This document shows positions 56,415-64,000 of a stretch of DNA of 64,000 bases, piece after piece. The notes under the pieces were generated by a model. That model had not been told where the DNA came from and searched no databases. It saw only the letters and a list, made by a program, of their open reading frames with translations. The stretch comes from Citrobacter amalonaticus (GTDB taxonomy: Bacteria; Pseudomonadota; Gammaproteobacteria; Enterobacterales; Enterobacteriaceae). The stretch is taken from positions 2,542,001 to 2,606,000 of the forward strand of contig JARDVN010000001.1 of NCBI GenBank assembly GCA_028994555.1. Direction: 5' to 3'. Both the position numbers and the translations under genes were made by a program. The stretch's first letter is position 1. Every line of letters starts with the position of its first letter.

Positions 56415-57582
56415 ATGAACTTACATGAATATCAGGCAAAACAACTTTTTGCCCGCTATGGCTTACCGGCGCCGGTGGGTTATGCCTGTACTACTCCGCG
56501 TGAAGCTGAAGAAGCGGCATCGAAAATCGGTGCGGGTCCGTGGGTAGTAAAATGTCAGGTTCACGCAGGCGGCCGCGGTAAAGCGGGCGGTGTGAAAGTC
56601 GTAAAAAAGCAAAGAAGAAATTCGCGCGTTTGCTGAACACTGGCTGGGCAAACGTCTGGTGACCTATCAAACAGACGCCAATGGTCAACCGGTCAACCAG
56701 ATTCTGGTGGAAGCCGCGACCGATATCGATAAAGAGCTGTATCTGGGCGCGGTCGTTGACCGTAGCTCTCGTCGCGTGGTCTTCATGGCCTCCACCGAAG
56801 GCGGCGTTGAAATTGAAAAAGTGGCGGAAGAAACCCCGCACCTGATCCACAAAGTGGCGCTCGACCCGCTGACCGGCCCAATGCCGTATCAGGGACGTGA
56901 GCTGGCGTTCAAACTGGGTCTGGAAGGCAAACTGGTTCAGCAGTTCACCAAAATATTCATGGGCCTGGCGACCATTTTCCTTGAGCGCGACCTGGCGCTG
57001 ATCGAAATCAACCCGCTGGTTATCACCAAACAGGGCGATTTGATCTGCCTCGACGGCAAACTGGGCGCTGACGGCAACGCGCTGTTCCGCCAGCCGGATC
57101 TGCGTGAAATGCGCGATCAGTCTCAGGAAGACCCGCGCGAAGCGCAGGCGGCGCAGTGGGAACTGAACTACGTCGCGCTGGATGGCAACATCGGCTGCAT
57201 GGTTAACGGCGCAGGTCTGGCGATGGGCACCATGGACATCGTTAAGCTGCACGGCGGCGAACCGGCGAACTTCCTCGACGTGGGCGGCGGCGCAACCAAA
57301 GAGCGCGTCACCGAAGCGTTCAAAATTATCCTCTCTGACGATAACGTGAAAGCGGTCCTGGTTAATATCTTCGGCGGTATCGTGCGTTGCGATCTGATCG
57401 CAGACGGCATCATCGGCGCGGTAGCGGAAGTGGGTGTTAACGTTCCGGTAGTGGTTCGTCTGGAAGGCAACAACGCCGAACTCGGCGCGAAGAAACTGGC
57501 TGACAGCGGCCTGAATATTATTGCAGCGAAAAGTCTGACGGATGCAGCTCAGCAGGTTGTTGCCGCAGTGGAGGGGAAATAA
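56415..57582 (+). CDS. sucC: Succinyl-CoA synthetase beta subunit (one apparent frameshift)
   Basis: ATP-grasp subunit making ATP and succinate from succinyl-CoA. ATG 56415 gives [20 protein letters not shown]. The nucleotide-binding [16 protein letters not shown] loop and [10 protein letters not shown] are present. The frame breaks at the A run 56603-56608; removing one A restores [19 protein letters not shown] and 388 residues, the E. coli length. It overlaps sucD by one base (TAATG). Confidence 0.97.
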
Positions 57583-58620: not shown

Positions 58621-59277
58621 CTATGCGCTTTCAGCCAACGTTTTCAGCCAACGGATACCGCTTTCCGGAGAGGTCATCACCGGGACGGGCGGAGACGGAA
58701 GCTGCTGCAAAACACGCGCCATCGACGCTTGCGCCAGCATGACCACATCAGCCTGTTTATACGCGCTGTGCAATCCTTCGCTGACGATGCGATCGTGAGT
58801 TTCCATATCGCCCGCCAGCAGAGCATGGAAGGCCTCTTCCATCAATATCGGCGTCACCGTGCATTGCTTACCGCTGGCCTGCACTTTGCGTTGCACATAC
58901 TCCAGCGTCGGTTTCATCGTGGTGGCGACGGTGGCCAGCACGGCGATGTTCTCACCCAGGCTAATGGCTTTTTCCACCATCGCACAGTCGATACGGGCAA
59001 GTTGCAGCGGCGTCATAAACTGACACTGCTCCACCGCCGTGCCAATAGACGAACAGGCGGTAATGAAAATCTCGCAATCCGCTTTTTCGGCTATGTGGAC
59101 GTAGTCGGCAATACGTGCCGCAATGTTCGGCGTCACGCCTCCGGCCTTCATCACCTGCTTAATCATCGACTCTTCGACCAGGTGCATCACGTCCGCTTCT
59201 GGCATGATGTCGCCGATCAGTTGCTGCATCATGGCGAGCGTGGCGGAACTGGTGTGAAGCATAGCGATCTTTTTCAT
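58621..59277 (-). CDS. Aspartate/glutamate/hydantoin-racemase-family protein
   Basis: A 218-residue protein of the Asp/Glu/hydantoin racemase superfamily. The first active-site cysteine is in FITACSSIG (Cys75). The second half, where two-base racemases have another Cys, reads AQASMA (residues 182-187), so the second cysteine is missing and a plain two-cysteine racemase mechanism is unlikely. ATG 59277 with AAGGAG overlaps the preceding stop by 4 nt. It is the last gene of the seven-gene operon. The upstream in-frame extension to 59373 is rejected. Confidence 0.8.
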   Translation of the reverse strand: MKKIAMLHTSSATLAMMQQLIGDIMPEADVMHLVEESMIKQVMKAGGVTPNIAARIADYVHIAEKADCEIFITACSSIGTAVEQCQFMTPLQLARIDCAMVEKAISLGENIAVLATVATTMKPTLEYVQRKVQASGKQCTVTPILMEEAFHALLAGDMETHDRIVSEGLHSAYKQADVVMLAQASMARVLQQLPSPPVPVMTSPESGIRWLKTLAESA

Positions 59278-59693
59278 TCTTCGATCTCCTTGAGCAAACA
59301 TTCGGCAACGGCCATGGCCGCATCGTGATCTTCCTGGGCGGACAGTCCACCAACCGCAACAGCCCCCAGGCATTTACCGTTGTGAAGAATCGGTACGCCG
59401 CCGGGCAGCGCGGTAAAACGTGGGTCAGCAAAGTAGCTGATCTCCAGAGACTCTTTTTGCAGGCGCTGTAAAAACGCCTGTGTGCTGCAGCCTAAACGGC
59501 TGCTGGTGCGCGCTTTGCGCTGCGTGAGCTCAATGGTCAAGAGTCTGGCGTTATCCATACGGGCAAAGCTCAGCAACTCGCCGTGGGCGTCGCAGACTGC
59601 CACGCTGAGCGGACGTTGCGCATAACGGGTGTCGGCGAGATCGAGTGCGAAATCTACCGCGCGTCGTGCCTGTTGCAGGGTTAAAGTCATCAT
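59274..59693 (-). CDS. HbpS/GlcG-like (DUF336) protein
   Basis: A 139-residue protein of the GlcG/HbpS family, intact. It has the typical LTLQQARRAVDFALDLA start, VAVCDAHGELLSFARMD, and a C-terminal GGVPILHNGKCLGAVAVGGLSAQEDH. Members often sit in operons for hydroxy-acid or diol use, as cofactor-binding or chaperone-like partners; the role is not known here. ATG 59693 is chosen; 59690 is also possible. Confidence 0.82.
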   Translation of the reverse strand: MMTLTLQQARRAVDFALDLADTRYAQRPLSVAVCDAHGELLSFARMDNARLLTIELTQRKARTSSRLGCSTQAFLQRLQKESLEISYFADPRFTALPGGVPILHNGKCLGAVAVGGLSAQEDHDAAMAVAECLLKEIEE

Positions 59694-59699
59694 GGTGAG

Positions 59700-61045
59700 T
59701 TATCCTTTTGACAGAGGTTCTGATACCGGCTGAGCAGGCGTGGTCTGGCTCAGGGCCGCGTGCCGGGCATCTTTTTTTGCGCCAGTAGTTCGCCAATAAC
59801 GACCCGCTGACGTTGCCAAGTGGCGTCATAACCGCAGAGGCGAGACCGACGGTGGCCAGTTTGCCCATCGCGGCGGCAAGACCCGACGCCATACCGCCGT
59901 TTTGCAGACCGACTTCGAAGGCCACCGTCCGCGCTGACTGGACATCCATGCGGAAGACCCAGCGGCTCATCAGATAGCCAATCAGGAAGCCGCCGAGGTT
60001 GTGCATCAGCATGGCGAAGCAGAGCAGAAAGCCGACCTGAACCAGGTTGTCGCGCCCGGCCGCTGCCGCCGTGGTGGTGAAGAAAATGATGCCCATCATT
60101 GAGATGGTCGGCATGATCTTCTTAACGCCGTCCACGCGTCCGTACAGCCAGTTATAGAACAGCGCCCAGATGATCCCGCCCGCCACAAAATTCAGCACCA
60201 CCGCATACATTTGCGCGTCGGCGCTGGCGAGTCCAAACAGCGCGTCCCAGCCGCCGGCTATCATATACAGCAGCCAGACTGCGCTGATCCCGGCGAGAAT
60301 TTGCACGGTACGACGTCCCCGCACGCCGGCATAGGTTTTCAGATAGTCGTGTAAAATCGCGGCGCCAATCGGGATGAGCACAATTTTCACGACGTCCATC
60401 ACCATCGCCGTGAGCTGGATGTCGATCATTGACCCCGCCAGCAGATTCACCCACAGCGGGGTCATGACCGTCGCCGCCAGCGTTGAGACGGCGGCGATAG
60501 AGACCGCCAGCGCCAGGTTGGCGTTCGCGATATACACCATAACGGTGGAGGAGAGCCCGCTGGGACAAGAACCAATCAACAGAATCCCTACCGCCACTTC
60601 CGGCGGGAAGTCAAAGATCAGCGTGATGCTCAGGCCGAGCAGAGGCATGATGACGAAATGACAGAAGGTGCCGATGAACACTGCCCAGGGCATTTTAGCG
60701 ACGTCGATAAAGTCCTGAATCGTGAGTTTGGTGCCCATACTGAACATGGTCGCCTGGATCACTAAAAAAGACGATCCATTTATGGGTGATGTTGAATCCG
60801 CCCCAGACGATCAGATCGGTTGACCAGGTCATCGCCGCGACAAAGCCTGCGATGATCCACAGGGTGAATTGGTAGCTGCGAAGATTTGTCCAGTAGCCCG
60901 CGCCTGCGGCGAACCCTGTCGTCAGCATCACCAGCCCCGGCTGCCAGAGGGCGGGAGACTGCATCAGCGCGCCAATTGCCGCCAGTGCGCCACCGGCGAT
61001 GCAGACGCCCAGTCCGGTTTTGTGAATAACGGTTGTGATAGTCAT
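59700..61045 (-). CDS. BASS-family (bile acid:Na+ symporter-like) transporter (two apparent frameshifts)
   Basis: Probable sodium-coupled uptake system for the operon substrate. After correction it has 447 residues, longer than the usual 300-330, with extra N-terminal membrane segments before the family core. Core motifs are LLIGSCPSGLSSTVMVYIA and AFEVGLQNGGMASGLA, which match the two crossover motifs of the family. Breaks at A run 60764-60769 and T run 59772-59778 each need one base removed. It lies 24 nt after the BKACE gene. Confidence 0.82.
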
Positions 61046-61069
61046 GGTGAAATGTCCTTTCTCTCGTTA

Positions 61070-61880
61070 TTACTGCCGAGGTGGAATCGCTAACATTTGC
61101 CGCGCAATATCCGGCGTGGCGACCTTTTTTATCCATACTGCGAATCAGCGTGGCGAGTTTGGCAACCTGCTGATAATTATGCTGAGCTTTTTCTTCGGCG
61201 CTTAAATAATCGCTGTCTTCAAAACCAATTCTCACTTCACTGGCGCCCATACCGACTGCTGCTGCAATAATATCGAAATTCTTGCGGCCAAAATGGGTAA
61301 TTCCCCATAAGGCGTCGCGTGGGATCATACTGCGCAAGGCAATTAATGCATCTACCGTCGCCGGTGAACTTCCACGGTGTCCGAGGACAATATTGAACAA
61401 CATCGGTTTCTTGAACGATATTTTTTCTTCCAGCGCCAGAATGTTATTAATCATGCCAATTTCGAAAATTTCAAATTCCGGAATAATGCCGCGCTGGGTA
61501 ATTTGTTGTGAACAATATTCGACGTCCGGACCGGGATTAACGTACACGGCATCGCCGAGGTTAACAGAGCCGACGTTCAGCGAGGCCATTTCAACGCCGG
61601 GACAGTCCAGCGGTGCGCAGCGTTCGGCAATCGACATAGCGGAGACACCGCCGGTGGAGGCCTGAATAATCAGGTTGGAATGGCGCATGACGTGGTCGAT
61701 CGTCGTCTGAAAATCGGTGGTGTCCGGCGTCAGGCGACCCTGCTTATCGCGAACGTGTAAATGCACGATGGCAGCACCATGTTCGACGCTTGCCAGTATT
61801 TCCTGCGCCAGTTCTTCAGGTATAACGCGGGGACAATCCGCGGCAACGGGTGCCAGCGAGATAATAACAGTATCCGACAT
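61070..61880 (-). CDS. BKACE-family (DUF849) beta-keto acid cleavage enzyme (one apparent frameshift)
   Basis: Zinc enzyme family that transfers an acetyl unit from a beta-keto acid and acetyl-CoA to give acetoacetate and a new CoA ester; 3-keto-5-aminohexanoate cleavage enzyme is the founding member. Zinc ligands are visible as His40 and His42 in IVHLHVRD and Glu221 in RIGFED, with the PEFEIFE motif near residue 135. The frame breaks at the T run 61125-61130; removing one base gives 269 residues ending PPRQ. The substrate cannot be read from sequence. Confidence 0.85.
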
Positions 61881-61916
61881 AGGTTCCTCCGGTTTTCCGG
61901 TACAGAGATATTAAAA

Positions 61917-62693
61917 TTATAAGTACGGTGTCATCCAGATTAACGATTCGGGCCCTGGTGTTGACGGTTTATATTCACAACCTATCCAGCCCTGATAACC
62001 TGTTTGCTTAATAAAATTAAAAAGCCATGCTTCGTTTAATTCTCCCGTGCCGGGTTCATGGCGACCCGGCACGGAAGCAATCTGAAAGTGTTTTATTATC
62101 GGTAAATAGTGTTCAATAAGGTGCGCAACATTACCGTGTATTTTTTGGCAGTGATAAATATCAAACTGTAAGCCGATATTATTTCTGGCCACGTCATTAA
62201 TGAGGCTTTCGGCCAGTGGAAAACTATCAATGAAATAACCAGGCATATCCTCCGGGTTTAACGGTTCAATCAGCACGTCGATTCCGGCCTCGACCATCAC
62301 ATCACAGGCGATACGCAGTCGGGCGATTAATTGTTCATGCTGGGTGCTGGCGGAAAGGCCATTCACGCGCAATCCGGCCATGACGTGCACCTTGCGGCAA
62401 CCCAACGCCGTGGCGTAATCGCGGGCAATCAGCAGACTGCGATGAAACGCCTCGTCATGGCCCGGCAGGGATGCCAGTCCGCGCTCGCCTGCCTGCCAGT
62501 TACCTGCCGGGGCATTCATCAACACCACCGGCAGACCGGTTTCCCGTTGCGCCGCCAGCAGAACATCCAGCGGTTGCTGCCAGAGAAACAGTCCTTCAAC
62601 ACCGTGGAATCCCGCCGCCTTTGCCGCCTGAAATCGCCTGGCAATGGGATATTCGCAAAACAGCCAGTCGAGGTTAGCCGCTAACTTCAGCAT
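61917..62693 (-). CDS. Hydroxypyruvate / 2-oxo-tetronate isomerase-like protein (OtnI/Hyi family)
   Basis: A 258-residue TIM-barrel isomerase, intact. Family motifs are all present: IEPLNPEDMPGYF (metal Glu), LQFDIYHCQ, IASVPGRHEPGTGELN and IGCEYKP. In known pathways OtnI converts 2-oxo- to 3-oxo-tetronate 4-phosphate, and Hyi acts on hydroxypyruvate. Its start overlaps the end of the DeoR gene by about 20 nt, so the two are co-translated. Confidence 0.85.
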   Translation of the reverse strand: MLKLAANLDWLFCEYPIARRFQAAKAAGFHGVEGLFLWQQPLDVLLAAQRETGLPVVLMNAPAGNWQAGERGLASLPGHDEAFHRSLLIARDYATALGCRKVHVMAGLRVNGLSASTQHEQLIARLRIACDVMVEAGIDVLIEPLNPEDMPGYFIDSFPLAESLINDVARNNIGLQFDIYHCQKIHGNVAHLIEHYLPIIKHFQIASVPGRHEPGTGELNEAWLFNFIKQTGYQGWIGCEYKPSTPGPESLIWMTPYL

Positions 62694-63481
62694 GGTGCGT
62701 TCCCTCCCGGCAATCCACCAGATGCAGTTTTACGCCCTGGCCGGCAATGGTGTCCTGCGCCGCGTCGGGCAAGTGGGTATCCGAAATAATGTCGGTCAGT
62801 TGATCCAGCGAGCAGATGTGGAACATCCCGTATTTGCCAAATTTACTGCTGTCACAGACCAGCACCCGACGGCGGGAGACGGTGAGCACCGCCTCTTTCA
62901 CCGAGGCTTTGCCTTCGCTGGGGGGTCGACATTCCACGTTCGGTATCCCACGAGGACGAGCTGAGAAACGCCACGTCGATGTTTATCGTGCGCAGAAAAC
63001 TGGCGGCGCTTTTCCCAAGGCATGAGCGGTTGCGCTGATCCACCAGTCCTCCGGTGTGATACAGCGTGATGTGCGGCATATCCATCAGGTAGTGGCTGAT
63101 GGAAAAATCGTTGGTCACCACCGTCAGGTTGAAGCAGTGGCTGGCGGCGACGGCTTTTGCCACTTCAAACAACGACGTTCCCGCATCGAGATACAACGTT
63201 TGCCCTGGCTCTATCAGCATGGCGGCAAGTTGCCCCATCCGTCGTTTCACGTCATGATGCAGCTCGGCCTTTTCCCGCCACGGCAGCTCCGATTTCAGCA
63301 AATTGTTGAGTTTCACCCCGCCATTGATCGAGATGACTTTGCCTTCTTCTTCCAGCAACTGAATATCGCGGCGCACGGTCATGTGCGACACGCTCATCAG
63401 ATCCGCCAGCTCATTAAACGAGGCGACGTTTTTTTCATGCACGTAGCGGTAGATAAAATCACGTCGTTGTTCGGGGATCAT
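62674..63481 (-). CDS. DeoR-family transcriptional regulator (one apparent frameshift)
   Basis: Probable local regulator of the operon. The N-terminal helix-turn-helix (FNELADLMSVSHMTVRRDIQ) is followed by the DeoR sugar-phosphate sensing domain (LYLDAGTS, VVTNDFSISHYL). The frame breaks at the G run 62920-62925; removing one base rejoins TERGMSTP to SEGKASVKEAVL and gives 268 residues. It lies within the operon, 9 nt after the aldolase gene. Confidence 0.88.
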
Positions 63482-63490
63482 CCTCTCACC

Positions 63491-64000
63491 TCATGCTCGC
63501 CGGGATTGTTCGAGTTCTGCTACTGCTTCCGCCGTTAGCGGCGCGTAGCCGAGTGGTTTTAAAGTCAGCCAGATGCGGGCGCTGTCTTCCAGCTCTTCGG
63601 CATTAAACACCGCCTCACGGAGTGAGCGGCCACTGACTACCGGGCCATGATTGGCCAGTAATGCCGCAGTATGGTCAGCCGCAATTTCACTGAGTGCGCT
63701 GGCGATACCCTCATGACCGGGTTTGAAATAGGGTAAAAGCGGCAGTTGCCCCACGCGCATCACGTAGTATGGCGTTAACGGCGGTAGACAGTTTTCCGGC
63801 GTGCTGCACGGCAGACAGGAAAGGGCGGTCAGCCACGGCGAGTGCAAATGAACCACCGCGCCGCAGGTCGGACGATGCCGGTACCAGGCCAGGTGCATGG
63901 GCACTTCTTTCGACGGTTTATCGCCACTGAGATGAACGCCGTTAGCATCCAGCTTGCTGAGCGTCGCGGCATCCAGTTCGCCCAGACAGGAGTTGGTCGG
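63491..64000 (-). CDS. Class II aldolase (OtnC/YgbL-like), N-terminus off the window
   Basis: Class II aldolase/adducin family. 169 C-terminal residues are seen, reading in frame from the window edge with PTNSCLGELDAATLSKLDAN. Zinc histidines are in VVHLHSPW and LLANHGPV, and the substrate-region SKEVPMHL is present. It resembles OtnC, the 3-oxo-tetronate 4-phosphate decarboxylase giving dihydroxyacetone phosphate. In the characterised ygb/otn operons the kinase (OtnK) and dehydrogenase (OtnD) precede it, and they may lie just beyond 64000. Confidence 0.87.
   Translation of the reverse strand, partial: PTNSCLGELDAATLSKLDANGVHLSGDKPSKEVPMHLAWYRHRPTCGAVVHLHSPWLTALSCLPCSTPENCLPPLTPYYVMRVGQLPLLPYFKPGHEGIASALSEIAADHTAALLANHGPVVSGRSLREAVFNAEELEDSARIWLTLKPLGYAPLTAEAVAELEQSRRA

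Follow-up and report, generated by a model that had tools for sequence, protein, structure and literature searches.

In the characterized route of L-threonate catabolism, as laid out in the available text of PMC12540250, LtnD oxidizes the substrate, after which OtnI, OtnK and OtnC lead to dihydroxyacetone phosphate (DHAP); the same text describes a bypass of this route composed of 2-OtnK and an F_bP_aldolase-type 2-OtnC. Brucella is reported to carry ltnD and denD inside the cluster (PMC10580937, in the part available). Enzymes of the BKACE family are described in excerpts of two other papers, one of which assigns a BKACE to deoxyribonate catabolism (PMC6365646), while a family survey names, among its groups, one that decarboxylates and another devoid of BKACE activity (PMC4922564). 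Here we analyzed an operon that joins both kinds of enzyme. It lies in a stretch of 64,000 nt, hereafter the window, of Citrobacter amalonaticus contig JARDVN010000001.1 (GCA_028994555.1, positions 2,542,001-2,606,000), and positions below follow window numbering unless a locus is named. We tentatively propose that it is a catabolic operon for a hydroxy or keto acid, which would join the route from oxo-tetronate to DHAP with no need for the usual tetronate dehydrogenase. The original prediction, made from the letters of the window, knew of no characterized route that uses OtnC/OtnI-type enzymes together with BKACE, and we likewise found no description of this combination in the open-licence papers that were searched.

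All seven genes that had been predicted were located on the minus strand, in the expected families and in the transcription order OtnC, DeoR, OtnI, BKACE, BASS, HbpS-like and Race, the last being an Asp/Glu-racemase-like protein (Table 1). Their convergent neighbour is sucD. The spacing is as tight as anticipated for a single operon, with gaps of 9, -20, 36, ~24, 6 and -4 nt, for which the ends of BKACE and BASS were taken from mapping the window to locus L001 of Citrobacter sedlakii NBRC 105722. Promoter-like and terminator-like sites showed no excess over shuffled sequence at the window operon. The full unit is larger than the seven genes first named: L001 carries an intact unit of eight, in which OtnK is the first gene and overlaps OtnC. 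This gene maps just past window position 64000, where a DUF1537 kinase had been predicted. The L001 copies of OtnK and OtnC pass their equivalog cut-offs (527.8 bits against 350 and 296.5 bits against 250, respectively). OtnI falls under its equivalog cut-off of 325 in the window and in L001 (287.7 bits in the latter), and this is still its best-scoring model. The window derives from a Citrobacter near C. sedlakii: the Race proteins of the window and L001 are 99.1% identical over 218 residues, and the BKACE proteins are 96.8% identical up to a frameshift in the window copy. The best database protein for the window BKACE has 99% identity over 92% of the query. To place the operon among its relatives, a profile built on 32 BKACE relatives was used to select the best 80 of 96 loci, and neighbours were counted within 8 kb. 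OtnK, OtnC and OtnI adjoin this BKACE in 26 of these 80 loci, and their association is therefore not due to chance. The operon is genuine and conserved.

Compared with the L-threonate/D-erythronate Otn route, the operon shares the OtnK and OtnC equivalogs, an OtnI-type isomerase, a DeoR regulator and the arrangement in one operon. It differs in having BKACE, Race, HbpS-like and BASS genes in addition, and in lacking LtnD and DenD. The original prediction had expected a dehydrogenase beyond position 64000 as well, and here it did not hold: neither enzyme is encoded in the operon. In the genomes of relatives that carry this BKACE, as distinct from the genome of the window itself, the LtnD model scored over its cut-off in only one of 16 (13 Pseudomonadota and 3 Bacillota) and the DenD model in none of 13, while OtnK did so in 13 of 13. 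A dehydrogenase further upstream was sought in L001 without success: judged from sequence, the genes that precede OtnK there look like CobA, LysR, CobO, a class I fumarase-type gene and the remnant of a divergent regulator. Between CobA and OtnK (L001:5255-6192) short minus-strand frames resemble a broken regulator, and relatives have a single frame of ~300 aa there.

The one LtnD-positive genome, of Winslowiella (G008), holds DeoR, LtnD, OtnK, OtnC, OtnI and a permease together on a contig separate from its BKACE, the DeoR and permease being assigned by sequence or similarity. The L001 proteins share 49% (OtnK), 54% (OtnC), 41% (DeoR) and 40% (OtnI) identity with those of this canonical cluster. 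Among the 22 BASS-type operons, only L014, the BKACE operon of the same genome, has no OtnK, OtnC and OtnI. This single case is the pattern expected if BKACE and Race feed OtnI, OtnK and OtnC.

Based on these data, the acid would be imported by the BASS-type transporter here and by a TRAP system in relatives. The BKACE-family zinc enzyme and a one-cysteine Race would then convert it to an oxo-tetronate by enolate-type C-C cleavage, decarboxylation or tautomerization, with no net redox change. OtnI would turn the oxo-tetronate into 3-oxo-tetronate, OtnK would phosphorylate the latter, and OtnC would decarboxylate the product to DHAP. DeoR would act as the regulator and the HbpS-like protein as an accessory. 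Support for the pathway role is moderate; that BKACE and Race stand upstream of OtnI, what chemistry they perform and in which direction material flows is what we infer from this arrangement. As suggested earlier, BKACE may also shorten a C5-C6 acid before or after an OtnI/OtnC step.

The original prediction gave the racemase-like protein no special place in the operon; Race is the most constant partner of this BKACE, beyond the Otn genes. It lies near BKACE in 69 of the 80 loci, on the same strand in 69/69 and with a median gap of 1783 bases, and the pairing spans three phyla. Among loci with full flanks, 49 of 53 have Race. Of the 11 loci without it, L045 has Race in two pieces and five have BKACE near a contig end (L044, L048, L058, L063 and L076); in L038, L039, L041, L046 and L079 Race is absent within 8 kb. 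BKACE and Race distances correlate over the 69 loci (r 0.81), to which shared ancestry contributes. A separate set of 197 genomes contained BKACE (E up to 1e-40) in three, including the genome of L001, with Race within 4 kb in all three; Race homologues (E up to 1e-15) occurred in ten, seven of them without BKACE. As a control, five plasmid regions with an ordinary BKACE, chosen from 410 matching records, had no annotated racemase within 6 kb in gene tables that are incomplete.

The predicted model of Race, which is of high confidence (predicted local distance difference test score 94.9), matches the Asp-racemase fold, a match that indicates fold and not activity. The motifs Cys75-Ser-Ser-x-Gly and Gln183-x-Ser-Met are present in 69/69 members. 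Race thus does not have the two cysteines of Asp/Glu/hydantoin racemases, C75 and Q183 each being found in all 69. Q183 aligns to the second-position cysteine of allantoin racemase, and the replacement of this cysteine by Gln sets Race apart from Asp, Glu and allantoin racemases and from arylmalonate decarboxylase. NCBIfam returned no match for L001 Race, nor for at least 28 of 35 members. A one-cysteine protein of this kind is not expected to racemize its substrate but to act as a lyase, decarboxylase or tautomerase. Race homologues with both the Cys and Gln motifs also follow KDPG-aldolase-type (2-keto-3-deoxy-6-phosphogluconate aldolase) genes at the end of hexuronate-type operons (L091:5588-6268, L092:5556-6278 and L093:5928-6593), in which UxaC of L091 was confirmed by scan and the other names are predictions. 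A distant homologue without the Gln motif, in L088 (5779-6432) and in L098 (genome G178), precedes an Iso_dh-type enzyme, a TctCBA-type transporter, OtnK and OtnC, and no OtnI was seen there.

Operon BKACE has the family's Pfam domain and its metal and base positions, with H40, H42, E137, R217 and E221 invariant in 32/32 relatives; H40, H42, R217 and E221 presumably play their customary roles. By residue count through 3e49, E137 is the counterpart of E171 of BKACE15. The latter is the base, and its change to leucine abolished activity (PMC11961710, from the part available). The enzyme differs from the named BKACEs (Kce 2y7d, BKACE15 8rio/9hnf and the deoxyribonate BKACE) in its first loop, which is shorter by 4 residues than in 3no5 and by 7 than in 3e49, in passing no equivalog model, and in its context, a kinase and Race without a CoA-transferase. 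The L001 copy is under all four NCBIfam BKACE equivalog cut-offs (233.2/382, 174.8/725, 157.1/430 and 138.1/350), and it could not be assigned to a group of the family survey (PMC4922564).

The putative exits from BKACE and Race vary among the loci. A DUF1537 kinase occurs in 55 of the 80 loci, as the OtnK/OtnC/OtnI set in 26 and as a kinase of another cluster in 29. In three loci of the latter kind (L040, L044 and L051) an F_bP_aldolase-type gene follows the kinase, an arrangement that resembles the 2-OtnK/2-OtnC bypass of PMC12540250 as far as its available text describes it. The kinase and BKACE form one open frame in L042 (8555-10798), a record labelled as an unverified contaminant. L095 and L096 have the order OtnK-OtnC-OtnI-Race-TRAP-BKACE with no dehydrogenase among these genes; in L095, OtnK (572.3 bits) and OtnC (270.7) pass their cut-offs and OtnI (304.6) does not. 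When the Otn label is mapped on a BKACE tree of 33 chosen rows, five changes are required, at least four of them forced. An acylating-aldehyde-dehydrogenase-type gene was found in 14 of the 80 loci, most of which also have putative PduL-type and shell-type genes; the scan of L053 covers the aldehyde dehydrogenase, class II aldolase and alcohol dehydrogenase. Fourteen microcompartment-type loci in Clostridia (L049, L050, L053, L056, L058, L061, L065, L068, L070, L071, L072, L074, L075 and L076) contain TRAP, BKACE, class II aldolase, and aldehyde and alcohol dehydrogenase genes, with Race in 12 and a DUF1537 kinase in five; the two without Race, L058 and L076, begin close to BKACE. It is possible, though doubtful, that BKACE and Race constitute a module of wide distribution whose reaction has no precedent in either family; it would be redox-neutral and perhaps CoA-free, and would yield an oxo-tetronate or related keto acid from a branched or polyhydroxy acid. 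Such a module would span three phyla and connect to no fewer than three exits, namely the OtnI/OtnK/OtnC steps, an F_bP_aldolase-type enzyme combined with a DUF1537 kinase, and a class II aldolase in a microcompartment. GlpK-like FGGY kinases also lie near BKACE in L034, L054, L059 and L080; L034 and L080 contain a split transketolase as well, and L034 additionally a sulfoquinovose-isomerase-like gene. An apiose-type route is possible there.

Several observations weigh against entry into the oxo-tetronate route by way of BKACE and Race. No kinase of either cluster lies within 8 kb in 25 of the 80 loci, some of these due to contig ends, and in L023, L024 and L026 BKACE and Race are accompanied by TRAP and a regulator but by no Otn genes. 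Beside BKACE, L037 has a tartronate-semialdehyde reductase (405.9 bits, cut-off 397) and L096 has a glycerate kinase, which fits a C3 product. LtnD-like enzymes of other subfamilies are present in 16/16 genomes searched, and the distant Race homologue of L088 and L098 stands alongside an isocitrate-dehydrogenase-type enzyme, OtnK and OtnC. These last two points would suit an ordinary tetronate operon whose dehydrogenase is encoded elsewhere, where an enzyme of the GarR/GlxR, short-chain dehydrogenase/reductase or Iso_dh type oxidizes threonate or erythronate to 2-oxo-tetronate, and BKACE and Race handle a side product or related acid. We consider this quite unlikely: the best of the below-cut-off LtnD scores reach at most 220 bits against 350, a true LtnD occurs only in the genome that has a BKACE operon without OtnK, OtnC and OtnI, and the pairing of BKACE with Race is left unexplained.

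The remaining points against our proposal concern BKACE itself, which retains the core residues for the usual acetyl-CoA-dependent chemistry, including the proven base position. According to the available text of PMC12482172, a proteome study, the product of an 810 bp KCE gene of C. amalonaticus CJ25 rose fivefold on carnitine relative to glucose, extracellular acetoacetate was higher, and a KCE role on 3-dehydrocarnitine is suggested. The CJ25 gene is probably the operon BKACE gene, because C. amalonaticus S646 has a single BKACE, that of the operon, of equal length; its rise on carnitine points to a role other than the one proposed here. The operon might then serve two functions under one regulator, OtnK, OtnC and OtnI acting on tetronates and a conventional acetyl-CoA-dependent BKACE producing acetoacetate and an acyl-CoA by cleavage of a beta-keto acid (for example 3-dehydrocarnitine or a keto-deoxy sugar acid), which the role of a BKACE in deoxyribonate catabolism also favours. 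We regard this as unlikely. The carnitine effect is relative to glucose and, in the text available, comes without a mutation test, and the fusion in L042 joins BKACE to the kinase. Second, higher-scoring BKACE copies in 3 of 13 enteric genomes lie 1-5 kb from a CoA-transferase, whereas the operon BKACE has no over-cut-off CoA-transferase within 100 kb on its contig in 13/13 (some contigs being short); G011 has a below-cut-off match ~6 kb away. Twelve of 28 carrier genomes have no CoA-transferase over the cut-off, and among those 12 acetoacetyl-CoA synthetase passed its cut-off in none and acetoacetate decarboxylase in one, counts that draft genomes and possible excretion weaken.

Candidate substrates were weighed in the relatives, and none is claimed. 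Rhamnogalacturonan II acids (aceric acid and Dha, 3-deoxy-lyxo-heptulosaric acid) were considered in view of the GH78, GH127, GH63-like, apiosidase-like and GH106 genes of the Bacillota loci. Isoapionate-type branched acids were considered because 4oan, which we take to be modelled with acetolactate, is closely related to the TRAP binding proteins of L025 (436 bits) and L028 (391 bits), and hexonates because 4ovt, presumably L-fuconate-bound, is closely related to that of L017 (485 bits). No solved structure is close to the TRAP binding protein of L095 (best 134 bits), and none matches that of L024 at E 1e-40. A literature search on the solved TRAP-protein entries found no paper.

The window copy of the operon carries four single +1 insertions relative to L001 in three of its seven genes, at 59777 and 60768 (BASS), 61129 (BKACE) and 62924 (DeoR), each within a homopolymer run of 6-7 bases. 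Decay of the operon in this strain would account for four such shifts, but we find it very improbable. The same type of insertion occurs at 56607 in sucC and the corresponding genes are open in L001, so the frameshifts are probably sequencing errors rather than decay; the OtnI, HbpS-like and Race frames are moreover open in the window itself. As for the accessory genes, the intact DeoR of L001 scores 261.1 bits with the YgbI model, under the cut-off of 400. The L001 BASS protein is under its curated cut-offs (TIGR00841 164.6/326.3 and NF047939 168/400), the Pfam SBF domain being passed on the window frame. The HbpS-like protein has its Pfam domain.

Table 1. Genes of the operon in the window
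Gene	Positions	Strand	Evidence
OtnC (class II aldolase)	63491..64000	-	PF00596 131.5 bits; OtnC model 233.9 bits for window part; truncated at window edge
DeoR-family regulator, YgbI-like	62674..63481	-	DeoRC and HTH_DeoR domains; frameshift in run at 62924
OtnI/Hyi-type isomerase	61917..62693	-	OxoTetrIsom 287.4 bits (cut-off 325); hydroxypyruvate isomerase 282.7 (cut-off 353)
BKACE-family enzyme	61070..61880	-	PF05853 202.8 bits; frameshift in run at 61129 (two frames, tblastn with L001)
BASS-type transporter	59700..61045	-	PF01758 102.1 bits, cut-off 24.3 (main frame); frameshifts at 60768 and 59777 (three frames against L001)
HbpS/GlcG-like (DUF336) protein	59274..59693	-	PF03928 111.4 bits, cut-off 25
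Race, Asp/Glu-racemase-like, one catalytic cysteine	58621..59277	-	PF01177 52.6 bits, cut-off 31

The eight-gene unit is found on genomes of Citrobacter, Klebsiella oxytoca and some E. coli. Of 5426 complete E. coli genomes, 21 have a match that spans at least 80% of the operon stretch of L009 at 90-95% identity. In one of these, E. coli 2016C-3878 (L086), the eight genes lie together near tnaA, flanked by insertion sequence remnants and, at the opposite end, by an integrase and a repA fragment; they have thus moved as a unit. A phage or plasmid origin was considered and set aside: BKACE had no match in phages or viral contigs, and its plasmid relatives are all below 60% identity.

As the whole unit comprises eight genes, a growth screen with deletions could reveal the substrate. 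If our proposal is correct, the operon would provide an entry to the threonate/erythronate route that needs no tetronate dehydrogenase. A BKACE subfamily below the cut-offs of all named models, and a racemase-like family that has no curated name, would each receive their first role, and the proposal would tie both families to uncharacterized microcompartment loci in Clostridia.

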